Below, piece after piece: positions 37,240-56,879 of a stretch of 60,000 nucleotides of DNA (position 1 is the stretch's first letter; every line of letters starts with the position of its first letter). Under the pieces are notes generated by a model. The model was given only the letters and a program-made list of their open reading frames with translations. It was not told where the DNA came from and did not search any database. Position numbers and translations under genes: made by a program. The stretch comes from Strigamia acuminata (Eukaryota; Arthropoda; Chilopoda; Geophilomorpha; Linotaeniidae): NCBI GenBank assembly GCA_949358305.1, contig OX442317.1, positions 13,274,186-13,334,185 on the forward strand, in the 5' to 3' direction.

Positions 37240-40200
37240 TTATTTGCGCCTTACAAATAAATGCTCACACAAGGTGTTAAGTCTGGGCTTGGGTAACCAT
37301 TTGGTCATCACATCGGCGACATTCAGGGCCCCTGGAATATGCTTAATAGCAAACGTTCCGCGCTCAAACCAGTCCCTGAGGAAATGAAGCTTTACGTCGA
37401 TATGTTTATTCGCCCTATTCTCTATTCGGTTTTTGGCGTATTGTATCGCGGGCATACTGTCCGCGTACACGCATGGGGTGTTCCGATTGATGCTGAACAT
37501 GATGTCGGCATCGTAAAGCCTCTCTAGCCATATAATCTCCTTTACGCCATCGACCACGGCCAGAAATTCACTCTCCATGATCGATAACGCAGTCATTGAC
37601 TGCTTATGGCAGTTCCACATGATCGGAACGCCACCCAAATAGACTATGTGACCCCCGAAGCTTCTCCTTTTGTCTGCATCGAGGGCAAACGACGCGTCGG
37701 TATACACAGTTAGATTATCATTTCGGCAATTGGAAAGATTAATCATATAATCCGACGTATTTGCCAGATATCGCAAAATTTGCAATAACATACTAATGTG
37801 ACGCGTCGAATGTTTCTCATTGTATTGTGAGAGGACAATGACCGAGAACAGGATGTCTGGCCTTGTCCTGCTCGCCAAGAACAAGAGACTTCCCACTAAG
37901 TTGCGATAGGGGAAAGTGGAATCAACCCGCTCCTTTTCCGTCACGCCCTGAATAATCGTTCCTGGCGTCCCAGGTACTCTAATCCGAAGGCATGAGTCGA
38001 CCCCATACAACTTACAAAGTTTTTCTATGTATGCCCTTTGATGGATCCTAATTTGGCCCCCAGACCTATCAAAGGCTATGCCTAACAAGAGGGTCACGGG
38101 ACCCAAATCAACCGTGTCAAAGGATTCCCTAATCCATCGAACAACGCATTCCTCGACGTAGTCATCCTTGGAGAAGAGAACTATGTCGTCCACGTAAAAG
38201 ATAAGAATTGCGTCGTTGTCTAACGCATAAACACAGTTAAGACCCAACAAGGGCACAAATCCCAGTTGGAGTAGACGGTCGTGGAGGGCTTGGTACCACA
38301 TCCGTCCACTCTGATGTAATCCATATAATGACTTCAACAGCATCCAACACTTATGTTGGTTTTCGGCTGTTCTGTAGCCCTTGGGAATCTCCATGAATTG
38401 GACCTTATCAAGGTCCCCGTACAAGTACGCGGCCTTGATGTCAAGGTGGACATCTCTCCAACCTTTCAGTATCACCAAGGTACAGAAAAACACTATAACG
38501 AGGACGAAATTGACTACGGGGGAAAATACCTCCGTAAAGTCAATGCCCGGCCTCTGCTTGAAGCCTTGTGCTACCAAGCGAGCCCGGTAGCGCGCGACTG
38601 CACCCGACTGGTCCCTTTTCATTTTATAAATCCATTTTGATCCCAAAAGCAACTCTCCTTCGGGCTTATCAATTTCTTTATAGACAGTTCGATCGTCGAA
38701 GATATCTGTCTCTTCTTTCATCGCCTTTTCCCAGTCCCGTTTGTTGGTGTGCCTCATTGCCTCCTCGTAGGTATCAGGCTCTACGGCACAGAAACCGGCA
38801 AAAGGGAGTTCGGGTTCTTCACCCTCTAAGGTTTTGAAGTCAAAAAGATCTGGGTCGTAGTGGTAACCCTCTGCGTCGCACCATCGCGCAACGTCAGTCC
38901 GACTTCTAAGTTTGTCTTCATTGGGCGAGAAATAAACCACATCAATTTTCCCAGCCGTTGCCCCGGCTTTCCGGACAGACTGGACCCGTCTCCACTTAGT
39001 CATATCCAGCGGCAGCGACAAAGGATCTTTGACCTTCTTTCCCTTTTTGCCCGAACCACGACGAGCTTGTATCGTAGGAGGAAGATCAACCTCCTCATCG
39101 TCGTCAGGATAAACATTGAAGTAATTCTCGCCATCGCCGTTATCCCCCTTCGCCCCACCAATTTCTTCAACTGGATTATCCCCAGCACCAGCATCCCCAA
39201 CCAAGTCACCTTCAACAGTTTCTATCGCAGGCTGTTGTATCGCTTGTTTTACAAGCGGCCTCAATTCAGGTCTGAAAACAGGCTTTGGGGTTGTGGGTAA
39301 AGGAGGCTTCTCCTTCGGAACCGGGGGTTCAACAGGGGGCGGAATAGGAGGTGGTAGTGCCTCTTGCACTTCCTCAACAATTTCAGGGATAGGGGCAACG
39401 GAATCATCATCATCTCCCTCGGTGTCCGAGGAAGAATCCCCAAAATGTTTGAATTGGCCACCCTGCGGTTGCTTGATGGGTTGTTGTAGCCGTTTGCCAA
39501 TCTCATACCAATATGAGTCTTCGAAAATTCGGACATGTTTGGACGCAAAAACTTGATTCCGTACAGGATCCCAAACCCTGTAGCCCCTAGTTGATATTGC
39601 GTATCCAATGAGTGCTCCCGCCCAAGCCCTTCCTTCCAGTTTGCCCTTTCTGACCTGGGACGGGATATGTACAAATGTCTTCGACCCAATACACCTGATG
39701 TGTCGCAAAGACAATTTCTTGCCGAAAAACACGGTATAGGGCACTTTTCCTCCAAGCCCTTCATGGGGGAATCGGTTCTTTAAGTAAACTATGGTCGTCG
39801 CTAATTCAGCCCAAAGGGGATAGGGGAAATCATTTTCCAACATTAAAGCTCTGACGCCACCGACAATGGTACGGTTTGCACGTTCTGCAACAGAATTCAT
39901 TTCCGGGCTATATGTATTCGTACGAATACATTTCAAACCAATTTTGGATGCATAATCATCCCAATTCCGCGAAATAAATTCTCCTCCATTATCAGTTTTA
40001 ATGCATTTCACTTTCCGTGATGTCGTTCTTTCGACTTCCGTCAACCAACGTTTAAAATGGCCCAAAACTTCCCCTTTGGTTTTCATCGTTATGATCCACA
40101 TATAACGTGAATAATCATCAACCAATATAAAGTAAAAATTAGCCCCACCCAAGGAAGTAGCTTGTGATGCCCCCCAAACATCCATGTGCACTAAATCTAA

Positions 40201-42111
40201 TACTCCCTTAGTGGAAATGGTAATTATCGGGGGAAAACTCGCCCTAGTGCTCTTAGCACGGGCACATGCGTCACAAGTGGATAATTCTTTGTTAGACAAA
40301 TTGATCCCAAAAACGTCCTCGGATTCGGTTAATTTAATAATGCCTTTAGCATTATGGTGGCCCATTCTGGAATGCCACGTGTCCATACTCTGGGATATTT
40401 CTTTCTTTCTCATTTTGATCCCAGTATCCCCGCTTTTGTTAACTTTCGCAGTCGCATTAGCTTCGGGAACAATAGCAGGAGGTGTCTGAACCTCATTCAC
40501 TGTTTTCTGTAAATTAATCGCCGCAGGCGCATTCGCTTTGGTTGGCTCGCTTACTTGCGTACTCAAATTAGATGCGGATTTTCCCATATCCGGCTTACAG
40601 AAACTTTTTAGTAAAGCTGACTTAAAATCTAAAATGGTTAGTAGCGGTTGTACAAATTTTTCATCCTTCACGGATGATTTGATTAAATCGAGGACAGCAG
40701 CTGTATCCTGTTGCGCAGTTAATGCAGCTGTGTTTACAGAATTAACCTCGACCCGGCAGTTGACTTTGTACAGCCTGTCGCTAGTCCGAACTGCCGAAAT
40801 CAATGGTTCCTCGATTTTATCTTTGAAAATACTCATCTTCCCATCTTTAACAATTGTGCACAACCCAGCCTCATCGGTGCGCCCGAGCGAAATAAGGTTT
40901 TTCCGAAAATTCGGTGCGAAGAATACATTCGTCAAAGTTATTTTCCTCGTTCTTTGTCCATAGAGCGAAGTGAGGACGATGTTGCCCACACCTTCAATCT
41001 TCGATTTTCCTTCTCCTTGTAGAACGCTGAAGTTAGACAACGGTTTGAAGTTTGAAAACCAATTCCGGTTGAAGGAAAAGTGGTCGGTCGCTCCCGTGTC
41101 CACGTACCACTGTGAATCGTAGTTTCCGTGCGACACAAGAGATAAGGGCACTGTGGGCTTCTCTTCCGACACCGCAGAATACAAAGTGTAGGGCTCATCT
41201 GTATAGGGGTCCAGTTGTGTGAGATTTGCTCTCTGTGGACCCCCTCTGCCTCGTCCTTTGCCACGGGTGCCTCCACGATTCAATTGGGCTGGCGAGCCAG
41301 CGCTGGCGGGGAAAGTCCCTTGCTGTTTCGGCGGCGATGGGCACTCCCTGGCGAAGTGTCCCGACCCACCGCAAGTAAAACATGTTCCACGCGAAGTTCC
41401 GGGGGAATTTGGGGTTTTTCCACGAGGTTTCCATTTCCCTTTAGTATAGAAAGCGGTAGTATTGTCTGCCAATACAGGTGGGACGCCAAATTCATTGGTC
41501 TGTTCATAAAGGCGATTGTACTCGCCAAGTAAACGTTCTTTAACGTTTTTCGCTGTGAATTCCGTATCCGACCAGTGATACGCGGTCTGTTTCACAGCCT
41601 CGTATTGTGGGGGCAGAAGATCTAAATATTGGAATGCCTGGAATTCATCGGTGACCTCAATTTTAACGTCCTTCAGTTCGACGATTTTGCGGTCGACCCG
41701 CCCGGTGAAAACTAGCATTTCCTCATTATCTCTAAGTTTCATGTTGAGGAATTCACGTCGCAACCGAGCACGACGTGCCCTCGTCGTCGGTTGATAAGCG
41801 TCCTTTAGGGCTTCCCAAACTTTAGCAGCGGTGGGGCAGGCAACAGCTATCACTTGCTGCGGCTCGGCGCAACTCATGCAAATAGTGGACATTGCCTTGT
41901 CCTCTCGAGCGTTAAACTCCCGCTTCTCTTTTGCAGTGGCTGTTGCAGCCAGTGGTGGCTCAGAGCCACTAACATGTCCCCAAACGCCGTTGTATTTGAG
42001 CAATAACTGGACCTGCACGGACCAGGTGGCATAGTTCGTGCCATCGAGCTTTTTAATATCCTTGTAATCGTCGTGTTTTGAAGCCATCGCGACGACACAA
42101 GGAAAATGCAC
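37240..42111 (-). CDS. Copia-type Gag-Pol polyprotein (gag, protease, integrase, reverse transcriptase, RNase H)
   Basis: The 1623-codon frame has no internal stop. The likelier start is the second ATG (about 42087, protein start MASKHDD), which gives the usual copia Gag beginning with an LDGTNYATW block. Order of domains: Gag to about residue 240; zinc knuckle CFTCGGSGHFAREC (244-257); RG-rich basic stretch; protease with DTG at 338-340; pre-integrase HHCC region (final pair CDAC) around 580-617; integrase core D644, D707, E743 with DD35E spacing; an acidic and proline-rich linker (about 895-945); reverse transcriptase with LDIKAAY (D1224) and YVDD (1306-1309); RNase H with TDAS, MESEF and YADS motifs; and the C-terminal MTKWLP motif. 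All catalytic residues I can place are present, so the copy could be competent. Expression would come from the minus-strand 5' LTR at 43290-43766. Confidence 0.96.
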   Translation of the reverse strand: MHFPCVVAMASKHDDYKDIKKLDGTNYATWSVQVQLLLKYNGVWGHVSGSEPPLAATATAKEKREFNAREDKAMSTICMSCAEPQQVIAVACPTAAKVWEALKDAYQPTTRARRARLRREFLNMKLRDNEEMLVFTGRVDRKIVELKDVKIEVTDEFQAFQYLDLLPPQYEAVKQTAYHWSDTEFTAKNVKERLLGEYNRLYEQTNEFGVPPVLADNTTAFYTKGKWKPRGKTPNSPGTSRGTCFTCGGSGHFARECPSPPKQQGTFPASAGSPAQLNRGGTRGKGRGRGGPQRANLTQLDPYTDEPYTLYSAVSEEKPTVPLSLVSHGNYDSQWYVDTGATDHFSFNRNWFSNFKPLSNFSVLQGEGKSKIEGVGNIVLTSLYGQRTRKITLTNVFFAPNFRKNLISLGRTDEAGLCTIVKDGKMSIFKDKIEEPLISAVRTSDRLYKVNCRVEVNSVNTAALTAQQDTAAVLDLIKSSVKDEKFVQPLLTILDFKSALLKSFCKPDMGKSASNLSTQVSEPTKANAPAAINLQKTVNEVQTPPAIVPEANATAKVNKSGDTGIKMRKKEISQSMDTWHSRMGHHNAKGIIKLTESEDVFGINLSNKELSTCDACARAKSTRASFPPIITISTKGVLDLVHMDVWGASQATSLGGANFYFILVDDYSRYMWIITMKTKGEVLGHFKRWLTEVERTTSRKVKCIKTDNGGEFISRNWDDYASKIGLKCIRTNTYSPEMNSVAERANRTIVGGVRALMLENDFPYPLWAELATTIVYLKNRFPHEGLGGKVPYTVFFGKKLSLRHIRCIGSKTFVHIPSQVRKGKLEGRAWAGALIGYAISTRGYRVWDPVRNQVFASKHVRIFEDSYWYEIGKRLQQPIKQPQGGQFKHFGDSSSDTEGDDDDSVAPIPEIVEEVQEALPPPIPPPVEPPVPKEKPPLPTTPKPVFRPELRPLVKQAIQQPAIETVEGDLVGDAGAGDNPVEEIGGAKGDNGDGENYFNVYPDDDEEVDLPPTIQARRGSGKKGKKVKDPLSLPLDMTKWRRVQSVRKAGATAGKIDVVYFSPNEDKLRSRTDVARWCDAEGYHYDPDLFDFKTLEGEEPELPFAGFCAVEPDTYEEAMRHTNKRDWEKAMKEETDIFDDRTVYKEIDKPEGELLLGSKWIYKMKRDQSGAVARYRARLVAQGFKQRPGIDFTEVFSPVVNFVLVIVFFCTLVILKGWRDVHLDIKAAYLYGDLDKVQFMEIPKGYRTAENQHKCWMLLKSLYGLHQSGRMWYQALHDRLLQLGFVPLLGLNCVYALDNDAILIFYVDDIVLFSKDDYVEECVVRWIRESFDTVDLGPVTLLLGIAFDRSGGQIRIHQRAYIEKLCKLYGVDSCLRIRVPGTPGTIIQGVTEKERVDSTFPYRNLVGSLLFLASRTRPDILFSVIVLSQYNEKHSTRHISMLLQILRYLANTSDYMINLSNCRNDNLTVYTDASFALDADKRRSFGGHIVYLGGVPIMWNCHKQSMTALSIMESEFLAVVDGVKEIIWLERLYDADIMFSINRNTPCVYADSMPAIQYAKNRIENRANKHIDVKLHFLRDWFERGTFAIKHIPGALNVADVMTKWLPKPRLNTLCEHLFVRRK

Positions 42112-43269
42112 AATAATAATTAGTTATGCACGGAGAAAACACAATTTCGGAATTTATTCCGCACAAACACTTCACAGGAGCACTTAATCACACAATGCAC
42201 AATTGTCTCTAGTCCCAAAAACCAAAAAGGAAGGCGAAAATACAGTTTCAACCCGGGGAATCTCAATAAGTGAGATTGGAAAACCTTGACTGGCAATCCA
42301 CCAACTCTTCCGTCCGACCTCCTGGGGTCGCGGGATGGTTGGGGGCCCTGGATAAGCCCAGCCAAGAATACAGTGTTACGTGCCCGACTGGACGTAGGGT
42401 AGCACCGAATCTAACAAGGGACCAACAACAAAAACTTAAAACTAACAAAGTTTCACGACAATATCTAATTAAATACACTTTTTCGTTGTTAAGTTGGGCG
42501 AATTGCGGGATCCGATCGTCGCAATCGCTTCCTCGTAGCGGTGAACGTCGGGTTGACGTTATTGGTGCACGGAACTGGGGCCGACGTGCTACCACTTGCA
42601 CACTTCCGTGCAAAAGTGGGGAAAAATAATCCAAAATCGTCGTTGCGCACGTCCGCGCCTTCGTGTAGCACACCGGGGTGCAAGCCACGGCTTTTCCGCT
42701 CAAAATTGGTCGTGTACGTAGGCTTATACGTACGCAGACACTCCCGATTGATTTCCACCGTCGGCAGCGATGAAAATCCAAACAAAAATGGCCGCTGGTG
42801 AGGATTTGTTCTTCACCAGCGATCCCACGATGATTTTCGTCCGTTTCGTGATGAAAAATCGTCGTTTCGGCGATTGAAGGCGCCGTTCCGCTGAGATACG
42901 CGTTGTCTCGTTGAAAATTGACGTTGTCTTGAAGAAACAACGTCGTGCGGGCGTGAATAGACCCGATACACGCTCTGGTCGGCTGGCTACGCTGCCTGGG
43001 CGATCCAAGATGGCCGCCGCACAAAAATTTTCAAAGTCGACGATTTTGGTGTTTATTTCACACCGAAAAATTGCAAAAACACACAGCTTACGCTTGTAAA
43101 TGTCCGAAATAATGTCCGCACACCCTGTCAATCCGTTTCAAGCGCGTTGGCGAGGTGAAACCCGTCCTGGTCGATCGAGTCGCGTTTGCGGCGATGTCGA
43201 GCGACGTCTGGGCTACGTTCGGTCTCCAAAAATGCCGAAAATCCTTTACAAACTGGTTGGGCCGTCGTC
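42112..43269 (-). other. Copia leader between primer site and gag
   Basis: The internal leader of the copia element runs from the primer-binding site to the gag start. At about 1.15 kb it is long for the family. It has several short overlapping frames on both strands, none with a recognisable product. It is more GC-rich than the surrounding satellite and AT-rich DNA. Confidence 0.7.
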
Positions 43270-43289: not shown

Positions 43290-43766
43290 TAAAGCGATTT
43301 CCTGGCCAAAACATCGGTTAGAAAGGAGTTGACGAGTGTCTAAACAGGTGCGCGACCCCGACATGCGTGCGCCATGTTTAATATCACATAAAAGTGTACA
43401 CGCTTCGAGGCTAACAACTGCACTCGGAAAAATAGGATAAATCATTGTTGGATTTCAATGATTTGTCCTTTACATTATAAAATAAAAGCAACGACATTCA
43501 TAATCGATAACTAAGCAATAATAACAATACAGGACTCGCTCTTTTGAGCAGACGATGTTATCAGCGCATGCTGCTAAATGGAAACGTTCAACCGCGGTAC
43601 AGAACCAGCATTAATAAAAATCGAGATCGATTGAACGCGACATCGAGACATTAAATAGCAGCACATTCATTACACATATCCGGAAAGTGTGTAATGTAAA
43701 TATTCACAAACTATACAATATGGCGACAAACAACCAAACACACAATATTTCCACCACAACTCAATA
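43290..43766 (-). repeat. 5' LTR of copia element
   Basis: Same length as the LTR at 36746-37222 and differing at two bases. It should carry the element's promoter, reading leftward. Its outer edge (43766/43767) joins directly to the interior of a Rep-helicase frame. Confidence 0.93.
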
Positions 43767-44345
43767 CACCTCTGCCTCATCCACGACTGGGTGGAAAAAC
43801 GGATAGATGCCGTGGCTGCAACAAGCAGGCAACAGGCCCGACGGGCCCACATCGTAAGCAGGTACACCGTAATTCCAGGCACATGGGTTGCGCGCTTGTT
43901 GGATTTTTACGCCAGCATCGATCCGACGCATCCCGACCCGCGGAGAAAGAATGTGTACTTGCATGGTGCAGCTGGCACAGGAAAGACTCGCCTCACCGAG
44001 GCATTCTGCAGTCACGTGATCTCTGCCTTCATGCCTTCTATGAGTGAAGGTCAATTCGCGTTCAGCGGTTTGGGCAATCACTGTCGAGCTGTTTACATCC
44101 CGGATTGCCCCGCACACAGAATTGACAGCGATCCCATCGAAGGCATGATGCTCCGCCTTTTAGAAGGGGCTGAATTCTCTGCCGCGACAAAAAACTCAAA
44201 CCCCAAACTCATCACGGTTTCCATGCCTGTCATTGTCTGTTCAAATTACGAGCCGCCAAATAAGCCCCAATTCCAGAGACGATTTACCATCATAGAGGTA
44301 ACAGGATTCTGGAAGGAGTCGGTGACCCGCCTAGATGCACCATAA
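43767..44345 (+). pseudogene. Endogenous CRESS-DNA-virus-like Rep, SF3 helicase domain only
   Basis: The frame is open from the copia LTR edge to a TAA at 44343-44345. It encodes about 190 residues ending in a complete superfamily 3 helicase domain. Numbering from the GTG at 43791, a Walker A loop GAAGTGKT lies at 59-66. A Walker B-like VYIPDC lies at 101-106 with a single acidic residue. Motif C with the sensor Asn is at about 146-152 (IVCSN), and an arginine-finger-like RR at 163-164. This arrangement is characteristic of circular Rep-encoding ssDNA viruses, in which the helicase follows an HUH endonuclease domain. The HUH half is absent because the copia LTR begins there. No capsid gene is nearby. 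Lack of stops suggests recent capture or retained use, which I cannot distinguish. A Rep-coding plasmid or transposon origin is possible. Confidence 0.8.
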
Positions 44346-44736
44346 ATGTATAAAAAAAACCCGAATTATTAAAAACTGTTATATAAAAATTGAAATAATA
44401 TTTTTAATTCCTTCTTTAATAAAAATACAAAGTTGACATACTTCACCGACAGTTGGAGCGCAGCCAAGTAAATTTGGGGGACTATTTCAGCTGCAGAACC
44501 TGTAAAAAAAAAGAAAAGAAAACACAAAGAATCAAATTCATGACAGAAATGGCAAAAAACAATCAAAACAGGAAAATACTTATCTGAAATCTTTCTGTAT
44601 CGACCTAACACTCCTCAGGAACGTGTGAGCAGCCGGAAAGACCCAGAAATAAAAATAAAAATAAAAATAAAAATAAAAATTGTTTAAAAAATTCAAAAAA
44701 AAAGATAAAAATGCATTTCAAAAAACGGTTATTTAC
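44346..44736 (-). repeat. Degenerate edge unit of the mini-exon array
   Basis: After the Rep stop, the sequence from about 44440 aligns by eye with 47500-47710. Both share ACTTATCTGAAATC, then a block ending CTCAGG, and AACACAAAGAATC-like or CACAAAGAATC words. On the minus strand it keeps exon-like and intron-like parts, but the donor has decayed to ATAAGT. It is therefore an old, unamplified relative of both neighbouring arrays. Confidence 0.6.
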
Positions 44737-46296
44737 CTTTTCTGACGTCCAGCGTGGCCAAGGTGAGTTGGGGGCCCATCCAGTGGCCATTAGCAGGTCC
44801 TGAACACCTAGGAAATAAAGAAAAACGATCAAAAACGATCAAAATTTGAAGGAAAAGCATAAAAGATGCATAAAAATTAATTTCAAAAAATTGTTTCTCA
44901 CCTCCTATGATGGCCAGGGTGGTCTGGGTGAGTCCGGGACCCATCCAGTGGCCTCCAGCAGGTCCTAAACACCTAGAAAATAAAGAAAAAAGATGAAAAG
45001 TGATAACAATTTGAAGGAAAAGCTTAAAAATTAATAAAAACAAATTTACAAAAATGCCTTCTTACCTTTTATGAAGTCCAGCATAGACAAGGTGAGTCCG
45101 GGGCCCATCCAGTGGTCCTTGGCAGGTCTTGAATATCTAGAAAGGAAAAAAAAAAAAACGAAAAACCATTAAAATTTGAAAGAAAAGCTGGAAAAATGCA
45201 TAAAAACGAATTTCAAAAAATTCCTTCTTACCTTTTCTGATGTCCAGGGTGGTCTAATTGAGTCCGGGACCCATCCAGTGGTCCTTGACTGGTCTTGAAT
45301 ACCTAGAAAGAAAAGAAAAACGTTGAAAAACCATTAAAATTTGAAAGAAAAACTGGGAAAAATGCATAAAAACGAATTTCAAAAAATTCCTTCTTACCTT
45401 TTCTGATGTCCAGGGTGGTCTAATTGAGTCCGGGACCCATCCAGTGGTCCTTGGCTGGTCTTGAATACCTAGAAAGAAAAGAAAAACGTTGAAAAACCAT
45501 TAAAATTTGAAAGAAAAGCTGGAAAAATACATAAAAACGAATTTCAAAAAATTCCTTCTTACCTTTTCTGATGTCCAGGGTGGTCTAATTGAGTCCGGGA
45601 CCCATCCAGTGGTCCTTGGCTGGTCTTGAATACCTAGAAAGAAAAGAAAAACGTTGAAAAACCATTAAAATTTGAAAGAAAAACTGGGAAAAATGCATAA
45701 AAACGAATTTCAAAAAATTCCTTCTTACCTTTTCTGATGTCCAGGGTGGTCTAATTGAGTCCGGGACCCATCCAGTGGTCCTTGGCTGGTCTTGAATACC
45801 TAGAAAGAAAAGAAAAACGTTGAAAAACCATTAAAATTTGAAAGAAAAACTGGGAAAAATGCATAAAAACGAATTTCAAAAAATTCCTTCTTACCTTTTC
45901 TGATGTCCAGGGTGGTCTAATTGAGTCCGGGACCCATCCAGTGGTCCTTGGCTGGTCTTGAATACCTAGAAAGAAAAGAAAAACGTTGAAAAACCATTAA
46001 AATTTGAAAGAAAAACTGGAAAAATGCATAAAAACGAATTTCAAAAAATTCCTTCTTACCTTTTCTGATGTCCAGGGTGGTCTAATTGAGTCCGGGACCC
46101 ATCCAGTGGTCCTTGGCTGGTCTTGAATACCTAGAAAGAAAAGAAAAACGTTGAAAAACCATTAAAATTTGAAAGAAAAACTGGGAAAAATACATAAAAA
46201 CGAATTTCAAAAAATTCCTTCTTACCTTTTCTGATGTCCAGGGTGGTCTAATTGAGTCCGGGACCCATCCAGTGGTCCTTGGCTGGTCTTGAATAC
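44737..46296 (-). repeat. Tandem array A: ten 71-bp mini-exons with splice signals, 164-166-bp period
   Basis: Read on the minus strand, each unit has a T/C-rich tract ending in TTTCTAG or TTCCTAG, a 71-bp exon-like block, then AAAG followed by GTAAG or GTGAG. Exon-like blocks lie at 44737-44807, 44902-44972, 45066-45136, 45232-45302, 45398-45468, 45563-45633, 45729-45799, 45895-45965, 46060-46130 and 46226-46296. Each is exactly 71 bp, while the intron-like spacers vary from 93 to 95 bp. The three units at the low-coordinate end are clearly diverged in sequence yet keep both splice sites and the exon length. The other seven are near-identical. Exons of 71 bp rotate the frame on joining, and the amplified copies carry a TAG in one frame, so a spliced chain is not a long open frame. 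The older copies are open in one frame (HWMGP motif). Function is unknown; a non-coding transcript or a splice-signal-bearing satellite are both possible. Confidence 0.85.
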
Positions 46297-46744
46297 CTAG
46301 AAAGAAAAGAAAAACGTTGAAAAATGATTAGAAATGGGTAAAAATTGATGAAAATTGACAAACCGAAACTATAAACGACAGGATAACAATAAATGGCGGA
46401 GGCGTCCCGCTATGCGGTGGCAATCTTGGGTACTAGGGAAAGGGATGGAAGAGGCCAGATGCCCAGCTTTTTCCACCAACCACAGTCTGCCACAAGCCAA
46501 AACCTGCACCCTTTGCTGGTGAATCTAAAGATTTCTTGCTGAAGCAAATGATTATTTCAATGCTTATTGGCTAATTGGTGGAACCTCATTCATTCAATTG
46601 GTTAATTATTTTTCCCGCCAATTAGTTTTTTCTTCATTGATTGGTTCTTAAAATATAGTTTCTCCTTTCTCACACCAGGTGGCAAATAGAGGGCGTTGCT
46701 ACAGTCAAAGAAGCGGCAAATTTGAATGCTAACCTCAGCTTAGC
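46297..46744. other. Spacer between array A and the 24-bp repeats
   Basis: The first bases complete the pyrimidine tract of the last array A unit. The rest is single-copy sequence with no open frame or family I recognise. It contains a CCAGGTGGC motif near 46676 and short ATTGGTT/CCAAT-like words. Confidence 0.5.
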
Positions 46745-46970
46745 TAACCTAACCTAAATAAAATATGCTAACCTAACCTAAATAAAATATGCTAACCTAA
46801 TCTAAATAAAATATGCTAACCTAACCTAAATAAAATATGCTAACCTAACCTAAATAAAATATGCTAACCTAACCTAAATAAAATATGCTAACCTAACCTA
46901 AATAAAATATGCTAACCTAACCTAAATAAAATATGCTAACTTACCCTAAATAAAATATCCTAAAATATGC
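46745..46970. repeat. 24-bp minisatellite with telomere-like core
   Basis: About nine head-to-tail copies of a 24-bp unit, TAACCTAACCTAAA plus TAAAATATGC, are seen. Each copy holds two CCTAA words, the C-rich strand of the TTAGG telomere motif, interrupted by an AT-rich spacer. The last copies are degenerate. It looks like a minisatellite seeded from an interstitial telomere tract. Confidence 0.9.
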
Positions 46971-47260
46971 TGTAGATGGACATGGTAAGAGGTGACCAAC
47001 CATTTGTTTGAATTGATTTTTACCTATTTTTTGAGTTTTTTTTTCCATTTTGGATTGTTTTAACCATTTCTTTTTGTTCTTTAGCCTTTTACAACCTCCC
47101 AAAAGTTTCTGGATGGGTCCCGGCCACACATGGACCCCGGGCTGGACATGATAAAAGATGAATAACCATTTGTTTGAATAGATTTGTACCTATTTCTTTA
47201 GTTTTTTTTCCCATTTTTGATTGTTTTGGCTAAGAGAAACTCAATGTCCATCTGCCTGGA
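46971..47260 (+). repeat. Inverted, degenerate mini-exon units (plus strand)
   Basis: Here the array family appears in the opposite orientation. On the plus strand, TGGACATG is followed by GTAAGAGG at 46985. A long T-rich stretch then ends in TTCTTTAG at 47084. An exon-like block of 73 bp (47085-47157) shares CTGGATGGGTCCCGG and CTGGACAT with the 71-bp exons of array A. Its donor is decayed (ATGAAT). A second, similar intron-like stretch follows to about 47235. Confidence 0.65.
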
Positions 47261-48067
47261 AGCCAAAACAGCGGGTATCTCGGGGAAAACAAGGAGTTTT
47301 ACTCTTCACTAATGTAGAAAAATAAATCCAACAGGAGCAAAAAGAAAAACAACATCTTTAATGTAACGGTAAACATGCGTAACAACCAATAATATCAAAA
47401 TAGATAAAGAATAAATTGAAACGAATAAAAACATGAAAACAAATCTAAAAATAACATCCAAAACAAATTTTAAAAATTGCTGTTCATCTTCTGTTATGTC
47501 CTATGTGGTCCAGGTGAAGTTGGTGGGCGTCCAAAGGCCTTTGAGGTCCAGAACATACAAAAATGTAGAAAAAAAAATCACAAAGAATCGATTTCTTTGT
47601 TGAAATGCCCAAAAATCAACCAAAACAAGTAAAAACTTATCTGAAATCCATTTGATATTGACCCATCACTACTCAGGGCCGTTTGGGCAGTCGCAAATGC
47701 CTAGAAAATAGAACAAAAATGATTAAAAACATGAAAAATTGAAGAAAAGAAACGTCAAAAATAAATTTCAGAAAAAGCGGTTTACCGCCTGTGATGTTCC
47801 CCGCCGATCAGGCGCAGTCGTGGATAACCACACACCTTAGACCAATCAAAAATCCCTAGAAAATAAAACAAAAATAATAAACACTTTAAAATGCATCAAA
47901 ATGCATTAAAGAAAATGCTAAATTCAGGAAACTTAACCCCACGTGCAGTCCACGGCCGTTTGACAAGCTGGAATGCCTAGGAACAAAAAAAAATAAAAAT
48001 CACGTCCAAAAACGGCCAAAATCATGAAAAATTATCGACCATAAATCCCCAAGCAACCAACACTCAC
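47261..48067 (-). repeat. Old diverged units leading into array B
   Basis: Several decayed units precede the homogeneous part of array B. On the minus strand, TTTTCTAG acceptors precede exon-like blocks at about 47642-47700 and 47785-47850, and a CCTAG acceptor precedes a short block at about 47935-47977 containing GGCCGT and CACGTG. Donors are partly lost (ATAAGT, GTAAAC). Up to about 47480 nothing is recognisable. Confidence 0.55.
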
Positions 48068-50419
48068 CATGATGATGTCTCACGTGCTGTCCACGGCCGT
48101 ACACGGCCGTTTGGACAGGCTGGAATGCCTAGGAACAAAAAAAAATAAAAATCATGTCAAAAAACGGCCAAAATCATGAAAAATCATCGACCATAAATCC
48201 CCAAGCAACCAACACTCACCATGATGATGTCTCACGTGCTGTCCACTGCCGTACACAGCCGTTTGGACAGGCTGGAATGCCTGAGAACAAAAAAAAAAAA
48301 TTAAATCACGTCAAAAAACGGCCAAAATCATGAAAAATCATCGACCATAAATCCCCAAGCAACCAACACTCACCATGATGATGTCTCACGTGCTGTCCAC
48401 TGCCGTACACAGCCGTTTGGACAGGCTGGAATGCCTAGGAACAAAAAAAAATAAAAATCACGTCCCAAAACGGCCAAAATCATGAAAAATCATCGACCAT
48501 AAATCCCCAAGCAACCAACACTCACCATGATGATGTCTCACGTGCTGTCCACTGCCGTACACGGCCGTTTGGACAAGCTGGAATGCCTGAGAACAAAAAA
48601 AAAAAATTAAATCACGTCAAAAAACGGCCAAAATCATGAAAAATCATCGACCATAAATCCCCAAGCAACCAACACTCACCATGATGATGTCTCACGTGCT
48701 GTCCACTGCCGTACACAGCCGTTTGGACAGGCTGGAATGCCTAGGAACAAAAAAAAATAAAAATCATGTCAAAAAACGGCCAAAATCATGAAAAATCATC
48801 GACCATAAATCCCCAAGCAACCAACACTCACCATGATGATGTCTCACGTGCTGTCCACTGCCGTACACAGCCGTTTGGACAGGCTGGAATGCCTAGGAAC
48901 AAAAAAAAATAAAAATCACGTCCCAAAACGGCCAAAATCATGAAAAATCATCGACCATAAATCCCCAAGCAACCAACACTCACCATGATGATGTCTCACG
49001 TGCTGTCCACTGCCGTACACGGCCGTTTGGACAAGCTGGAATGCCTGAGAACAAAAAAAAAAAATTAAATCACGTCAAAAAACGGCCAAAATCATGAAAA
49101 ATCATCGACCATAAATCCCCAAGCAACCAACACTCACCATGATGATGTCTCACGTGCTGTCCACTGCCGTACACAGCCGTTTGGACAGGCTGGAATGCCT
49201 AGGAACAAAAAAAAATAAAAATCATGTCAAAAAACGGCCAAAATCATGAAAAATCATCGACCATAAATCCCCAAGCAACCAACACTCACCATGATGATGT
49301 CTCACGTGCTGTCCACTGCCGTACACAGCCGTTTGGACAGGCTGGAATGCCTAGGAACAAAAAAAAATAAAAATCACGTCCCAAAACGGCCAAAATCATG
49401 AAAAATCATCGACCATAAATCCCCAAGCAACCAACACTCACCATGATGATGTCTCACGTGCTGTCCACTGCCGTACACGGCCGTTTGGACAAGCTGGAAT
49501 GCCTGAGAACAAAAAAAAAAAATTAAATCACGTCAAAAAACGGCCAAAATCATGAAAAATCATCGACCATAAATCCCCAAGCAACCAACACTCACCATGA
49601 TGATGTCTCACGTGCTGTCCACTGCCGTACACAGCCGTTTGGACAGGCTGGAATGCCTAGAAACAAAAAAAAATAAAAATCACGTCCAAAAACGGCCAAA
49701 ATCATGAAAAATCATCGACCATAAATCCCCAAGCAACCAACACTCACCATGATGATGTCTCACGTGCTGTCCACTGCCGTACACGGCCGTTTGGACAAGC
49801 TGGAATGCCTGAGAACAAAAAAAAAAAATTAAATCACGTCAAAAAACGGCCAAAATCATGAAAAATCATCGACCATAAATCCCCAAGCAACCAACACTCA
49901 CCATGATGATGTCTCACGTGCTGTCCACTGCCGTACACAGCCGTTTGGACAGGCTGGAATGCCTAGGAACAAAAAAAAATAAAAATCATGTCAAAAAACG
50001 GCCAAAATCATGAAAAATCATTGACCATAAATCCCCAAGCAACCAACACTCACCATGATGATGTCTCACGTGCTGTCCACTGCCGTACACGGCCGTTTGG
50101 ACAAGCTGGAATGCCTGAGAACAAAAAAAAAATTAAATCACGTCAAAAAACGGCCAAAATCATGAAAAATCATCGACCATAAATCCCCAAGCAACCAACA
50201 CTCACCATGATGATGTCTCACGTGCTGTCCACTGCCGTACACGGCCGTTTGGACAAGCTGGAATGCCTAGGAACAAAAAAAAATAAAAATCACGTAAAAA
50301 AACGGCCAAAATCATGAAAAATTATCGACAAAAAAATCCCCAAGCGACCATCACTCACCATGATGATGTCACACGTGCTGCCCACGGCCGTACACGGCCG
50401 TTTGGACAAGCTGGAATGC
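48068..50419 (-). repeat. Tandem array B: sixteen 61-bp mini-exons with splice signals, 152-154-bp period
   Basis: On the minus strand each unit reads pyrimidine tract, TTCCTAG or TTCTCAG, a 61-bp exon-like block starting GCATTCC and ending CATCATG, then GTGAGTG. Blocks begin (low coordinate) at 48068, 48220, 48374, 48526, 48680, 48832, 48984, 49138, 49290, 49442, 49596, 49748, 49902, 50054, 50206 and 50359; the last ends at 50419. The acceptor alternates between two forms, but AG precedes G in every unit. Every block contains CACGTG, and some contain ACGGCCGT. Units alternate in a higher-order pattern: the AAGCTG/CTGAG variant recurs at 48573, 49031 and 49489 (458 bp, three units), then 306 bp later. 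Joining 61-bp blocks rotates the frame and meets a TGA, so no long protein results. The architecture matches array A although the exon sequence differs. Confidence 0.87.
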
Positions 50420-51220
50420 CTAGGAAGTTAGGTTTACAGATTAAGCCTTCGTTCTGACATATAATACACTGTATTATTTCAAATTGTTATGCTCTCGTGT
50501 CACGTATCTTTCTATTGTGACTAGAGATTTTCCTTACCTGCAAATAAAACACCAGCTGTTTAGTTACATTACTCTTCCTCTTCTCTTTCTACAATTGACA
50601 CTAAATATGCAGCGAAAAACGAATCCAAAAGATTCTAAGCCATACGACAATACCAATCACTCGTTGGTTCAAATCGTCCGCCATTTTCCTCCGCAAAAGC
50701 TACCGAGTCGTCACGTGACCAAAAACGAAATGGAAAATCAGTTTAGATGAGTTGTCTGACAATTAATTAATTAATTATTTCAATTTATTTACACCAAACA
50801 GTTTCTTATTAAAACGTTCATTTCCCCGATCCGAAATAATTTTCCTTGGTATCAGAGTAGACAGTTGTATCGGCAATGGACCCAATCGAACTCCCTGATT
50901 GGTCCATTCGAATTTGGCAACAAAGGCTTATTTTTTCCACGCCCTCTTTCCCACCTTATTTTTAGTTTGTCATTCCGTTTTTTCGTGAAAAAATGTGTAT
51001 TTATTCGCCCGTTTACCATTAATCCTCATAATTTGAAACAAATCGGCGTTGGGTTGTTTAAGTTAGTGCATTTCGCCCGCACCGTACACGTGATCAAAAC
51101 CTCCTCCCCTTCCCTCTTGTGATTGGTTGATTCGAAGTAGAGAGCAGACGATAGTTTGGATTTTCATAGTGTTATGATTTTCTTTGCTATTAAAATACTT
51201 TGTTATTATATATTTTTATA
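50420..51220 (+). other. Single-copy region with a possible copia-type LTR and primer site
   Basis: No gene is recognised. At 50846-50857 the sequence TTGGTATCAGAG resembles the copia-type initiator-tRNA-Met primer site, and an ATG follows at 50876 with about 30 open codons. An AATAAA at 50542 and a TATAATAC at about 50460 lie upstream, as in an LTR. No second LTR copy or downstream pol is present, so at best this is the remnant of an old element. Confidence 0.3.
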
Positions 51221-51348
51221 ACAAATGGCTTTCATGCTCCAAAACTGCATTTTTGGGACTCCAAAATGCATTTATTTCTGAAAACAAATGGCTTTCATGC
51301 ATCAAAACAGCATTTTCAGGGTAGAAAAATGCATTTGTTTATGTAAAG
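51221..51348. repeat. Two-copy 63-bp tandem repeat
   Basis: ACAAATGGCTTTCATGC occurs at 51221 and 51284, and each copy ends in AAATGCATTT(A/G)TTT. Within each copy the ends are partly inverted (ACAAATG against CATTTGT). Confidence 0.7.
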
Positions 51349-51970
51349 AAACATCTTAGGGACATAAAAGCTTCAATTTCTACTTCCAATATAATTTTGC
51401 TCTGGATTCAAAAGAAAGCAAGAACAGCAATTCACATAGTCCTGTGAGTTTCATGGTACAAAAACATACCACAGGAAAGCCCGAGGGCGGAGAAGGCAAG
51501 TGGGTTTTTCAAGCAAAGGGAAAAGGTTTTTAGTCTTAAACTGATGAAGTGGCAGCAAAAATGAGCAGTAAGTGTTGTAATTTCATAAATTAACCCTCAG
51601 AAGGATAACCCTATACCATTTTTGGGACAACACTCTTCTTGAATAGGAAAACGTTTTTTGGTTTAATATAATTAGCAGAAATTTTCTGGCTTTTTTCACA
51701 ACAATAATGTTTGTTTCCAAAAAAAATTGAAGTGTTCTGAACATTATTTGTTTATTTATTCACCTTGGAAAATTCGGCCCCTTAGAAATTCCAGCTTAAA
51801 TCTAAGTTGGCTTCTCTCAATCTTATAATAGCGCTTCTTCTTAGTGCTTCCAATTGGTATCAGCAGACACTGTATGGCGCTAGTAGTGCAACACAAAAAA
51901 TTACAAGGTTCTATTTCTGGCTAAAATATACATTAAAAATAAAATTATTTAGAATAACTTAAACTTTTTC
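51349..51970. other. AT-rich region without recognisable features
   Basis: About 620 bp of AT-rich sequence separates the 63-bp repeat from the 20-bp array. I see no gene, RNA or repeat in it. Confidence 0.5.
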
Positions 51971-52440
51971 ACCTAATATTAATTTTCTTGGTTAAAAATT
52001 AATTTTCTTGGCTTAAAATTAATTTTCTTGACTTAAAATTAATTTTCTTGGCTTAAAATTAATTTTCTTGGCTTAAAATTAATTTTCTTGGCTTAAAATT
52101 AATTTTCTTGGCTTAAAATTAATTTTCTTGGCTTAAAATTAATTTTCTTTGCTTAAAATTAATTTTCTTGGCTTAAAATTAATTTTCTTGGCTTAAAATT
52201 AATTTTCTTGGCTTAAAATTAATTTTCTTGGCTTAAAATTAATTTTCTTGGCTTAAAATTAATTTTCTTGGCTTAAAATTAATTTTCTTGGCTTAAAATT
52301 AATTTTCTTGGCTTAAAATTAATTTTCTTGGCTTAAAATTAATTTTCTTGGCTTAAAATTAATTTTCTTGGCTTAAAATTAATTTTCTTGGCTTAAAATT
52401 AATTTTCTTGGCTTAAAATTAATTTTCTTGGCTTAAAATT
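51971..52440. repeat. 20-bp minisatellite of a perfect A/T palindrome
   Basis: Twenty-three near-perfect copies of a 20-bp unit, TTAAAATTAATTTTCTTGGC. Each junction forms the 12-bp perfect palindrome AAAATTAATTTT. The period is close to two turns of the double helix, so the A-tracts stay phased. The left end is degenerate and the right end is sharp, before AACGCCC. Confidence 0.95.
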
Positions 52441-52955
52441 AACGCCCATTCATGCAATGAAAAGTGGTCAAAAAGGGCCAAACGGTCATTTTAAGCCAAA
52501 AACATAACAATATAAATTAAAAAAAGAGGAAATAAGCGCAAATAGAAGGCGCCTGGATCTCCAAAATGCACGTCAAAATTAAAAACCAATTAAATAAATT
52601 AAACAAATAGGATCAGCTAATAAACTAAAAACCTACAAAATCCAGCATCCACCTGAAATTGAAAAAACACCTAAAATTCCGTTAAAATTCTCTAAAAATT
52701 AGAATAAAATTCTATTTTAATTTCTCTGCAATCTCCCTAAAATTTCCCCAAAATTCTCCTAAAATGACAAATTTTACTTTTAAAAATTAAACAAACAGAA
52801 TCAGCTAATAAACGAACAAAAAACTTGCAAAGCCCATCCACCCGAAATTGAAAATACATCTAAACTTCCCCTAAAATTGCAAAAAAGTTGCCCAAAAAAA
52901 ATTCTTTTTTAATTTCCCTGTAATCTCCCTAAATGAAGCCAAAGAGTCAGGAAAA
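52441..52955. other. AT-rich region containing a 188-bp duplication
   Basis: Two diverged copies of a block are offset by 188 bp. TTAAACAAA(T/C)AG...ATCAGCTAATAAAC recurs at about 52599 and 52787, and CTGCAATCTCCCTAAA or CTGTAATCTCCCTAAA closes each copy. No coding sequence is visible. Confidence 0.55.
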
Positions 52956-53157
52956 ACGTGCGTTTTGGTCGCCAAAAACGTGCAGTTAAGCAAAAAAAAA
53001 ATGTATTGCCACCCAAAATGTGCGTTTTGGCCACAAAAAGTGCACCTTACACACCAAAAAGTGCTCTTCGGACACGAAAAGAACACTTGGCCAACCAAAA
53101 TGCACAATTTTGCTGCCAAAAAGTGCACTTTGGACAGGGAAAATGCACTTTTTACAC
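52956..53157. repeat. Degenerate ~20-bp repeats upstream of the recombinase gene
   Basis: Around ten imperfect copies of GTGC(A/G)TTTTGGCCACCAAAA are arranged head to tail. The unit is itself nearly self-complementary (TTTTGG/CCAAAA). Frames open through it are products of the periodicity. It lies just upstream of the first recognised exon of the recombinase gene and may cover an unrecognised upstream exon or promoter. Confidence 0.6.
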
Positions 53158-53188
53158 GTATGTGACTAATTTGTACATTTATGCGTAG

Positions 53189-56100
53189 GTCCAATCACTA
53201 CGGCCATTACGGCCACCCAGGATGAGGTCGGGGAAGACACCATCGAGAACGTCAATGGGCAGGTGTCTGTAGTTTGGGATGATACCAATTGGGTGCCAGA
53301 ATGCATGAGGGAATTTTTGGTACCGTCCTTGAACGAAGCCAGGCTGTGCAAATTTGAAGAATGGGCAGGCTACGACGCAGGACTTGGTCACTCGCAACAC
53401 ACGGCTGAGCAGCACAGGCGGCAAACAAAAGATTTCCTTGTGAAAACATGGGAGAGCAAGGAAGAAACGTTCCTCCAAGGAACGGAAACCTGGTTCTTGG
53501 CGATGTTAAAAGGATTTGCCCCGGGAACAATCGTGAGCTCGTTAAGTTCGATAAAGCACTATCTCTTTTACGTTGAACGCTCGCTAAAGAACCCCCCTGG
53601 CCCAGCCCGAGACCTCCTTAGGTCGATGACGGGTCAGTTGAAAATGTGGGGAGGCAATGTAAAAAAGCTTTGCGCACGCCGCCAAAGAGTGCTAGCTCGT
53701 AACGAACGAACAAAACTGCCGTGCAAGAAAGACGGCAAGTCGTTCATTTCCTCGCTGCACGTCCGCGAAGTCCACGCCTGGCTGGATCAGCCAAGCTCAA
53801 TTAAAAACTGGAGCATTAAGGTCGTTCCACATGCCAGAGACGTTCTGGTCACCGAATTGGTTATGGCAAATGCGGCTCGCCAGGGTTGTGCCACTCAAAT
53901 GACCCTCGGCGAGTGGCAAAACCGGGTGGTAGTCAGGGATTGCTTGGTGGTTGACGTGGCGAAAGTAAAAAACGCAGCGCAAAGGGGCGGCGCAGACGTG
54001 GTGGTGTCCAAAAGGCTAGAAAGCCGGATCCGAAGCTACATCAGGCACTTTCGGAGCCGTTGCTTTTTTGGCGAAAACAGTGAGGAACGGCGACGAGACA
54101 CGTCAACACCTCTGTTTGTCAACTCGGTGGGCAAACAGATGGATAAGTCGATGGCGGCCAACTGCGTTACAAATGCCTGGAAACGCGCCGGCCTCAAGCC
54201 AATGACGGCCACCCTTTATCGAAAGGGCGTCGTTACGGAGGTCCACCATCGGAACTATGAAATGGCAGCCGATCTGGCCAATCAAATGGGCCACAATGTG
54301 GCAACGGCAGACAAATATTACAGGTTGGCAGGATCTGCACGCCGATCGGTCAAAACTGTGCGGAGAATTGGAAAACTCATGGGGACCGGTGCACTACTGG
54401 ATAGCAGCGACGAAGGTAATACACTTAATGCCCAAAATTTTTTTCGCCCCTAAAGCTCATTATCCACTTACCATCAAAACAAGACGAACAAGAGAAAGCA
54501 GGGCGCGAGTCCGACACATCTGACGCGTCGTCCGAACGCAACGCGTCACATTCGCTACCGCCTTCTCGCAGACGAGTACCAGCGTCCACGTCGCGAACCG
54601 TCAAACGCACTCGTCAGGCGGGGCCATCTACCTCAGCGCGCCAAAGTGCAGCGTCCGGTATGCATAAAAAAAAATAATAACAATAAAGCAGTAATGATTA
54701 ATCAAATTGCACTAAACAGTGGAAGGTGATCGACACCAGTCCGCCACTTCCGACGCATCGCCCGAACGCAGCGCATCCCATTCGCAACCGCCCTCTCGCA
54801 GACAAGTACCAGCGTCCACGTCGCGAACCGTCAAACGCACTCGTCAGGCGGGGCCATCTACCTCAGCGCGCCAAAGTGCAGCGTCCGGTATGCATAAAAA
54901 AAAATAATAACAATAAAGCAGTAATGATTAATCAAATTGCACTAAACAGTGGAAGGTGATCGACACCAGTCCACCACTTCCGACGCATCGCCCGAACGCA
55001 GCGCATCCCATTCGCAACCGCCCTCTCGCAGACGAGTACCAGCGTCCACGTCGCGAACCGTCAAACGCACTCGTCAGGCGGGGCCATCTACCTCAGCGCG
55101 CCAAAGTGCAGCGTCCGGTATGCATAAAAAAAATAATAACAATAAAGCAGTAATGATTAATCAAATTGCACTAAACAGTGGAAGGTGATCGACACCAGTC
55201 CACCACTTCCGACGCATCGCCCGAACGCAGCGCATCCCATTCGCAACCGCTCTCTCGCAGACGAGTACCAGCGTCCACGTCGCAAACCGTCAAACGCACT
55301 CGTCAGGCGGGGCCATCTACCTCAGCGCGCCAAAGTGCAGCGTCCGGTATGCATAAAAAAAAATAATAACAATAAAGCAGTAATGATTAATCAAATTGTA
55401 CAAAACAGTGGAAGGTGATCGGCACCAGTCCACCACTTCCGACGCATCGCCCGAACGCAGCGCATCCCATTCGCAACCGCCCTCTCGCAGGCGAGCATCA
55501 CCGTCGGCGTCGCTCGGTGCCGCACCACTCAGTTCCCCCAGGTTGTCCAGATGGTCGTACTGTCCGGAGGGTTTAATGTCATTGTCACAAATGCAGGAGG
55601 CGGTGGAGGCATCCATTGGCTCCCGTTCGCAATTGCCAACCCGGCGACAATCGCTGCCATCTGTGTCGCTTGGCGCCGCACCACTCAGTCCAAGCAGTAC
55701 GGAAGCCTTTGGGTCATTGGCACAAACACGAGAGGCTCGTTCGTCCCTTGCTTCAGAGCCTGAAGGGACGAGTATGTATTCTGAAAGAGATATTCTAATA
55801 ATTATTCATTGTTTAATTCTGACAATTAATGCAGACGTCCGGTCAGGCCAGGAGCGGTTCGAAACAGAGGTGTTCAACGAATCGCCGACCAGACACCAAA
55901 AAACAACAAATCGCAGACTCGGTGAACAACTCTTGGTGAAACCCGCTCACCTATTGCTCACAGCATCCATGTCCATTCCGGATACTAGGGACCGGTCCAT
56001 CATTCCCACATCTGGTGAGCAAACTGGTATGTCCTCAGACGGAATAAAAACACACACACACATTTATTAATTACTTTGTTGTCTGTTTCAAACAGTGCCC

Positions 56101-56493: not shown

Positions 56494-56879
56494 GAAATGT
56501 TTTAAAACCAAATCATATTAGAAACCATTATTTTCACTATACTTTCAAGTCTCGCTCGTCTCGGCATCTCAGGCTTCCTTTCTTTTAGGAAATCTCGGTC
56601 TTGTTAAACCGAGATTTCTTCACAGGATTGTAAACGATATTGCAAAAAGAAAAAGTACACTTTACGTCACGAGTCGTAACGACTCATAACGTCGTTGTAA
56701 CGTTTTCTATTGTATTTCGTTTCACACGTGACAGCTACAAATGTGACAATTCGTCAACAAAACGTTTCTTTTTTTTTACTATATAACGAGAAAAAACAGT
56801 TTCTCTCAGAAACAGCGTTGTTTAAAAATTTACAAATAACAAATTAACCCAAATAAAATTTATTCTTCCTAAAAATTGG
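56494..56879. other. 3' flank of the recombinase gene with a hairpin
   Basis: AT-rich sequence follows the stop codon. A perfect inverted repeat, AAATCTCGGT at 56590-56599 and ACCGAGATTT at 56608-56617, would form a 10-bp stem with an 8-base loop. Possible poly(A) signals (AATAAA) first appear near 56851. I see no coding sequence. Confidence 0.5.

Follow-up and report, generated by a model that had tools for sequence, protein, structure and literature searches.

Tandem mini-exon arrays in a telomeric element of the centipede Strigamia acuminata as a candidate telomere-directed, non-coding transcription unit

Two tandem arrays in which every unit resembles a small exon between splice sites raise the question whether they are exons of a transcript or a satellite that carries splicing signals. 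The arrays were analysed in a window of 60,000 nucleotides of Strigamia acuminata (contig OX442317.1, positions 13,274,186 to 13,334,185); positions given without a contig refer to this window. They are:
48068 to 50419, minus strand: array B, with 16 exons, each 61 nt long, and introns near 91 nt
44737 to 46296, minus strand: array A, with 10 exons, each 71 nt long, and introns near 94-95 nt, last three units diverged

The 26 mini-exon units reported in the preliminary description were real, each of the 16 exons of B and 10 exons of A being preceded by AG and followed by GT in minus-strand sense. The AG/G acceptor claimed for every unit was generally present, but the A unit at 45136 reads AG/A; likewise, the claimed fixed exon length is kept in both window arrays, while in sister arrays some B' units have 59 nt and two of ten D exons have 70 nt. 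The splice sites were scored with a general animal consensus matrix against 3,417 GT and 3,082 AG control sites from both strands of positions 28481-60000. Every one of the 26 donors was at or above the 99.9th percentile of the control sites, as were 25 of the 26 acceptors; the exception, in the first B unit (50419), was at the 87th. The best acceptor and donor pair per unit was also compared with 300 dinucleotide shuffles. On the minus strand no shuffle reached the score of A or B (0/300 each), while on the plus strand 102/300 did so for A and 293/300 for B. Among the controls, the two strands of a 147-bp satellite had 8/300 and 195/300 shuffles as good, and those of a 230-bp repeat 25/300 and 45/300. 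The splice pairs of arrays A and B are stronger than chance on one strand only. The arrays B', D, E and F164 also exceeded their shuffles (1, 2, 2 and 3 of 300, respectively); array F144 was no better than shuffles (39/300) and array G136 (8/300) no better than the satellite control.

A genome search placed this DNA family at several contig ends, where the arrays are part of a repeated unit of 11-18 kb. Read in exon sense, the order of the unit is a promoter-like region, B, A, sometimes D, B' and TTAGG. The further parts of the element in the window are:
50538 to 51150, minus strand: putative promoter and first exon
46743 to 46963, minus strand: 24-bp tandem repeat with TTAGGTTAGG, between arrays B and A
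43766 to 44345, plus strand: C-terminal part of a Rep-like ORF, cut at 43766
53170 to 54453, plus strand: 427-aa ORF, tyrosine-recombinase-like (PF00589, E 0.039, below the cut-off)
57174 to 57270, plus strand: inner element end, where CAG-A16 runs into (CCTAA)n

The TTAGG repeats, in exon sense, follow directly after a 375-bp terminal segment in 20/20 copies. The tract has at least 150 bp in 9/20 copies; in 11/20 just 7-27 nt of TTAGG (7 nt in 5/20) stand before another element. Within the terminal segment an AATAAA signal stands immediately behind a possible acceptor (TTCTTCAG) and could stop a predicted RNA short of the telomere. The copy in the window lies inside its contig, 3.7 Mb away from the end, and the unit on contig C3 points away from an end without telomere repeats. 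The number of whole exons differs among near-identical copies, from 4 to 24 for A and from 8 to 21 for B by motif count, in which the window's B count includes one truncated unit. In a short form of the element, array A is joined to B' within an intron, so that the exon chain is preserved. The putative promoter and first-exon region contains the motif AAAATGGCGGAC at 50687 and a first-exon donor, CAG/GTAAGG, ending at 50538; positions 50500-51150 are 100% identical at 11 genome places, the window included.

The full Rep-like ORF has 428 aa (C6:3641-4924), its label resting on motifs read from an alignment. One metagenomic relative of 32% identity was found; scans of viral contigs with this relative and of phages with the ORF itself gave none, and the exon core had no match in viral contigs. 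The recombinase-like ORF had no homologue at E 1e-3 and none in the PDB by sequence, and its predicted fold was uninformative (pLDDT 34.5). Beyond these two, no long ORF was present in C6:1-10000 (ORFs of at least 90 aa) or in window positions 46400-57270 (at least 70 aa), and eight further element ORFs matched no Pfam family. In the window no Rfam family reached its gathering score, with two weak, irrelevant matches at E up to 5, and the tRNA search gave none.

Exons related to those of the arrays were found elsewhere. Exons A and D are homologous, both having 71 nt with 42/71 identities and no gap. A single-copy 71-nt exon at C8:14651325-14651395, with splice sites CAG/G and AAG/GTAAA, is gaplessly identical to A at 40/71 positions (0/5000 shuffles as good) and also aligns with B' and F (0/3000 each) and with B (55/3000). 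Direct homology of A and B was not supported, 1033/2000 shuffles being as good in local and 48/1000 in global alignment; their homology is indirect, via this single-copy exon. For array E, homology to the other arrays was not supported either. The C8 exon has 22 matches of at least 98%, all within about 100 kb of large-contig ends or on small contigs, and on the large contigs other than C3 all seven point to the nearer end. In the units of C118, C87, C70, C44 and C3 it lies 3,013-3,014 bp upstream of the match to a 3-unit A array on the same strand, after which the terminal segment follows, and these units have another 5' half. Among the matches listed, Rep-like genes of the 46% type stand beside only 2 of the 22 single-copy exons. 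The idea that the C8 exon belongs to a separate second element was abandoned, since in these five hybrid units the exon precedes A and B' arrays. Arrays of its own are also present in a relative whose Rep-like gene is 42% identical, and a related exon occurs in another element as well as in other 5' halves. Neither an exon-sized array nor an A-like exon was present in the sequence analysed beside the C1:44.4 Mb relative (8.4 kb of one flank), in the C8 stretch towards Rep or in the C1:36.5 Mb relic.

Single exons and relics accompany the arrays in the window:
47786 to 47855, minus strand: single 70-nt exon between the arrays, acceptor and donor present
47480 to 47976, minus strand: relic exons downstream of array B (truncated B at 47976, B-like at 47700, A-like at 47558)
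47085 to 47155, plus strand: inverted relic, D-type exon, acceptor AG retained, donor lost
44442 to 44645, minus strand: relics after array A (B-like at 44642 without AG, A-like at 44499 with AG and GTATGT)

The 70-nt exon resembles the C8 exon (5/3000 shuffles equally good). The relics at 47976 and 47700 retain AG, and a good donor is present in none of the three relics after array B. The relic stretches after the two arrays share 72% identity over 252 nt. Among the six single-copy relic exons of the window, four retain AG and two have a donor that reaches the 95th percentile.

The telomere-directed exon chains suggest that chromosome ends carry a gene for a spliced non-coding RNA. On balance we consider it probable that both arrays supply internal exons of a multi-exon, non-coding unit which belongs to a telomeric element and is directed toward the telomere. 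Transcription by RNA polymerase II would begin close to 50.7 kb, pass B, A, D (in long copies) and B' and, in telomeric copies, continue into (TTAGG)n. After splicing, the RNA would contain repeated exon blocks and possibly a TERRA-like UUAGG tail. Unequal exchange would add or remove exon copies, and as each unit has its own splice pair, any number of units could be spliced. The DNA shows the anatomy, the orientation, the changes in copy number and the homologous single-copy exon of other 5' halves; promoter, transcription, splicing, passage into telomere repeats and function are predictions from it. In favour of this reading are the one-stranded splice pairs, the terminal segments that all run into TTAGG, the homology of A, D and the C8 exon, the preserved exon chain of the short form and the antisense position of exons relative to Rep-like genes. 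Against it are the few relic exons with a good donor, the inverted D-type relic, the results for F144 and G136, the stretches of relatives that lack arrays, the few Rep-like genes next to single-copy exons, the 7-nt TTAGG stretches, the positions of the C3 and window copies, the AATAAA and the failure to find exon junctions in the genome. The first option of the preliminary description, a non-coding transcript of many exons that arose by amplification of the unit, fits because of the whole-exon number changes, the non-triplet exon lengths and the lack of a codon-position pattern, although transcription and splicing are here predicted from sequence. For removal from host RNA, which that description gave as one example of how a satellite might use splicing signals, no support was found.

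The main rival to the telomere-directed unit is passive inheritance of the splice sites, which we regard as a lesser though serious possibility. An old spliced gene would have lain in the element, and tandem duplication of its exon and intron segments would have produced arrays whose sites are kept only by descent and homogenisation, with no RNA or splicing at present. This agrees with the near identity of the units inside one array, with element copies that are 98-100% alike and with the missing good donor in four of six relic exons; moreover, no spliced genomic copy (A-A, B-B or B'-B' exon junction, up to three mismatches) was found in the genome. The constant exon length is partly due to recent homogenisation. 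As claimed earlier, the three diverged A units keep exactly 71 nt, with no indel nucleotide in 204 exon positions, but the flanking introns had only one (207 positions) and the pyrimidine tracts one (36 positions). The length rigidity within array A is therefore not clearly exon-specific, indels being equally rare in the flanking intron. Against passive inheritance, splice-core bases were changed at 4/48 positions compared with 120/538 exon and intron bases, pyrimidine tracts left out (one-sided Fisher p = 0.013, on few changes). The single-copy C8 exon, which keeps exactly 71 nt and both splice sites, is only 56% identical to A and so was not homogenised along with it, and splice pairs are present in arrays of unlike sequence. 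On conservation of splice bases above their neighbours the signs are mixed: all six diverged 71-nt exon types retain AG and GT, but only two of the six relic exons have a good donor.

An improbable reading is a small-RNA precursor of the piRNA-cluster kind, in which a transcript of many exons, running antisense to the Rep-like gene, would feed silencing of the telomeric elements, and splicing or its suppression would decide its fate. In the main unit, on C8 and in the C1:41.5 Mb relative the exons do lie antisense to Rep-like genes, and the unit is multi-copy and located at contig ends. However, no sequence feature specific to such a precursor was seen. Protein-coding or mutually exclusive exons are very improbable. 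Equal exon lengths recall mutually exclusive exon clusters, and five of six 71-nt exons (A, A8, A9, D, C8) are open in frame 0, but A10 has a stop, B and B' have no open frame in common, and substitutions are even across the three codon positions (for example, D versus C8: 10, 8 and 11). A choice among the units of one array would gain nothing, as they are nearly identical. Neither the shared open frame nor the codon-position bias sought for mutually exclusive coding exons was found, and an ordinary protein gene was rejected on the same two points. A function at the DNA level (promoter, protein-binding or recombination repeats) with incidental splice motifs is hardly credible; the CACGTG and TGACGTCA palindromes of the B' exons speak for it, the one-stranded splice pairs in arrays of unlike sequence against it.

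The proposed telomere-directed unit was compared with known systems. TERRA starts in the subtelomere and runs toward the telomeric tract (PMC6874320). The unit shares with it, at the DNA level, a putative subtelomeric start and the orientation into the telomeric G-rich strand. The lncRNA-TARE of Plasmodium falciparum are non-coding RNAs from telomere-associated repeats of many ends, always telomere-ward, shown by RNA-seq; the consulted sections of that paper describe no near-identical exon arrays (PMC4465157). What is seen here is a DNA family at several contig ends, whose predicted transcription would likewise run telomere-ward. DDX11L is a transcript family across many human chromosome ends (PMC2705379) which, unlike the present element, derives from a host gene; its abstract mentions no exon arrays. 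The Terminons of bdelloid rotifers are giant telomeric elements in head-to-tail chains with Rep ORFs and C-rich telomere repeats at the inner end (PMC6431247). The present element likewise has a Rep-like ORF, forms tandem chains and bears C-rich telomere repeats inwardly. No counterpart of the Penelope-like reverse transcriptase of Terminons was found in the stretches searched, Pfam giving none among 12 element ORFs; a recombinase-like ORF is present instead. A hammerhead ribozyme of Terminon type was not detected by Rfam (E up to 5) in window positions 43500-57500, which include the inner end.

Firre-type lncRNAs have repeated exonic blocks, as the RNA predicted here would, but come from a single X-linked locus which is not telomeric. 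The Y' elements of yeast, tandem subtelomeric units between short telomere tracts with a helicase-type ORF, resemble the present unit, by description, in these features; we know of no mini-exon arrays in them. To our knowledge, TERRA is not known as a mini-exon chain, nor have telomere RNAs in general been so described. No such chain appeared for TERRA among the titles and abstract starts listed, and a search, mostly of the same kind, showed no paper with this array form among those listed.

More speculatively, and as a tentative idea, the chromosome ends may carry a spliced TERRA for which elements with interchangeable 5' halves give promoters and amplifying mini-exons. Transcription would run into TTAGG, and the RNA would be a concatemer of dozens of repeated blocks plus telomere repeats. 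Such an RNA would be multivalent, its valency varying with the count of exon copies, and the element would earn its keep through a service to the chromosome end. The DNA here predicts a telomere RNA in the form of a mini-exon chain, whose repeat number would differ from end to end and which would have a homologous exon in alternative 5' halves. If true, this would offer a natural system with varying exon number and splicing at chromosome ends, and telomeric mobile elements would be linked to telomere transcription.

The splice signals of the two mini-exon arrays were scored with a general animal consensus matrix, not one trained on the Strigamia acuminata genome. The arrays lie as follows.

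Window 44737-50419, minus strand: two mini-exon arrays, each exon between AG and a GTGAG, GTAAG or GTAAA donor

The preliminary description had recognised 26 units with splice-flanked exons of fixed length, and this was borne out, array A comprising ten 71-nt exons and array B sixteen of 61 nt. Every donor (26/26) and 25/26 acceptors scored at or above the 99.9th percentile of the control sites; the one acceptor that fell short belongs to the first B unit. The comparison with shuffled units and the plus strand, proposed at the same time as a check, also came out in its favour: shuffles were as good as the real splice pair in 0/300 cases for A, 0/300 for B, 1/300 for B' and 2/300 for D (further arrays of the same element), while the plus strand gave no excess over shuffles. 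The control 147-bp satellite gave 8/300 on one strand. Lengths of 61 and 71 nt shift the frame at every unit, copies differ freely in how many units they have, no open frame is common to B and B', and substitutions are even across codon positions; we therefore conclude that the exons are non-coding, and the earlier argument from these lengths against a long protein holds.

The arrays belong to an element repeated at contig ends in a genome of 237.5 Mb (157 contigs, here C1, C3 and so on) whose TTAGG telomeres would fit an arthropod. Exon A has at least 160 genome matches and exon B at least 241, B' units included. A 651-bp promoter-side stretch occurs at 11 places at 100% identity (two on C6, one each on C9, C11, C8, C3 and C5, the last being the window, and four on small contigs), and the 375-bp terminal segment at 20 places at 100% identity, the window copy not among them. 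Motif counts in nine contig stretches gave the order on the exon strand: a promoter-like region, 8-21 B exons, 4-24 A exons, 9-11 D exons in long copies, 3-6 B' exons, the terminal segment and TTAGG. On C133 array A is split into blocks of 24 and 11. A short form (C11, C148, C8, C16) is without D and without a Rep-like match among the matches listed; on C11 its A-to-B' junction falls inside an intron. Unit sizes are about 11.0 kb (C11) and 18.2 and 17.5 kb (C6). At the inner end, A16 is joined to CCTAACC and has equal length in 6/6 places read (window 57177; C11:19430; C6:587, 18819 and 36286; C16:2515); this end appears retrotransposon-like, though no reverse transcriptase was detected in the element. 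The open reading frames of the element and its surroundings are as follows.

C6:3641-4924 (contig stretch L009, 3641-4924), plus strand: Rep-like ORF of 428 aa, with HxH, YxxK and Walker motifs recognised by eye in the alignment
Within the element, plus strand: recombinase-like ORF, PF00589 below cut-off
Window 34460-36910, minus strand: retrotransposon-like long ORF, Gypsy- or Copia-like by eye
Window 37240-42123, minus strand: retrotransposon-like long ORF, Gypsy- or Copia-like by eye
Window 30944-32959, plus strand: retrotransposon-like long ORF with a DUF1759 match

PF00910 scored 22.0 bits against the window fragment of the Rep-like ORF and 20.2 bits against the full ORF (cut-off 21.5), and F replaces Y in the YxxK motif of one relative (stretch L066). 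This telomeric element (window 43766-57270) combines a Rep-like with a tyrosine-recombinase-like gene; we know of no named element group with both. Its break at 43766 may be an insertion cut. Tandem repeats of 20 bp (x23.5, window 51974-52442) and 230 bp (x4.4, window 54508-55513) lie within it, and the 147-bp satellite (196 copies, window 282-28480) adjoins it; similar sequence opens the small contigs C15 and C44.

The orientation towards the telomere was examined. The UUAGG sense coincides with the exon strand in 20/20 terminal segments. A TTAGG tract of at least 150 bp follows the segment in nine copies (C148, C136, C133, C11, C9, C8, C16, C87, C70), and a short TTAGG stretch and then another element in the other 11 (about 12 nt, C6 twice; about 27 nt, C3 four times; 7 nt, C118 twice and C87, C44 and C3 once each). 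Among the 11 promoter-side places, both on C6 and those on C9, C11 and C8 are aimed at the nearer contig end, the C3 copy is aimed away from a contig end that lacks telomere repeats, the window copy lies in the interior and four are on small contigs. At that kind of end, C3:37692520-37788348 carries telomeric units inverted in order and is perhaps a misplaced end contig.

Relatives of the exons were compared. A and D are identical at 42/71 positions without gaps, and a single 71-nt exon at C8:14651325-14651395, with splice sites CAG|G and AAG|GTAAA, aligns without gaps to A (40/71 identical) and to D (42/71), no shuffle of 5000 being as good. Its alignments to B' and to exon F of a relative element were matched by 0/3000 shuffles each, that to the single window exon at 47855 by 5/3000 and the weak one to B by 55/3000. 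The genome holds 22 matches to the C8 exon at 98% or higher, one of them partial. On large contigs except C3, 7/7 such matches are aimed at the nearer end (C1, C5 twice, C6, C8 three times); the six on C3 are split five to one between the strands. Two C8 copies lie about 7.6 kb from, and antisense to, a Rep-like gene with 46% identity to the main one, a gene type absent near the remaining 20 of 22 among the matches listed. Five units (C118, C87, C70, C44, C3) carry the C8-type exon 3,013-3,014 bp upstream of a 3-unit A array match, which the terminal segment follows, all in the same orientation; they are units of the same kind with a different 5' half. Since the C118, C87, C44 and C3 units differ in inner end (AAAAAAAAATGTTTTTGCACCTAACC) and 5' half yet share A, B' and the terminal part, their halves appear to have been swapped by recombination. 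At C1:41.5 Mb a relative (Rep-like gene 42% identical) carries, on the strand opposite to that gene, arrays E (141 bp x9.9), F and G; E (2/300) and F164 (3/300) were better than shuffles, G136 (8/300) equalled the satellite control and F144 showed no excess (39/300). Separately, C1:30924056-31003349 has 18 sequences, spaced about 4.6-4.7 kb, that match the donor of the single-copy 71-nt exon and the beginning of the intron after it, and is possibly a macrosatellite holding the same exon end.

The main rival explanation, which we regard as rather unlikely, is passive inheritance of the splice sites, and constraint on these sites was weighed against it. Observations on the expectation that they are more conserved than their flanks pointed both ways: comparing A with its three diverged units and B with B', pyrimidine tracts (8/48) left out, 4/48 splice-core positions were changed vs 120/538 in exon plus intron (one-sided p = 0.013, on few changes), but of the window's six single-copy relic exons (47976, 47855, 47700, 47558, 44642, 44499) two (47855, 44499) have a donor scoring no lower than the 95th percentile and four keep the AG. 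These donor and AG losses count against constraint, as does a D-type relic (window 47085-47155) that is inverted and has lost its donor. The stretches examined of other relatives (L065, the Rep side of C8; L066; L068) hold no exon-sized array or A-like exon, and the genome has no A-A or B-B exon-exon junction with up to 3 mismatches allowed.

Rotifer Terminons form chains at telomeres, carry Rep ORFs and have C-rich repeats on the inner side (PMC6431247). The element is not filed with them because the reverse transcriptase and hammerhead expected of a Terminon were not found by ORF lists, Pfam and Rfam over the searched stretches; nor is this DNA-level unit filed as TERRA (telomeric repeat-containing RNA). 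In Plasmodium, lncRNA-TAREs arise from telomere-associated repeats, with transcription heading for the telomere (PMC4465157). In Strigamia acuminata an AATAAA lies shortly after a possible last acceptor and could stop the RNA before the telomere repeats; direction and adjacency to TTAGG suggest that the transcript may instead run on into UUAGG in a TERRA-like manner. On balance we lean towards the arrays being part of a predicted telomere-directed, spliced non-coding transcript, the arrays themselves growing by unequal exchange between units.
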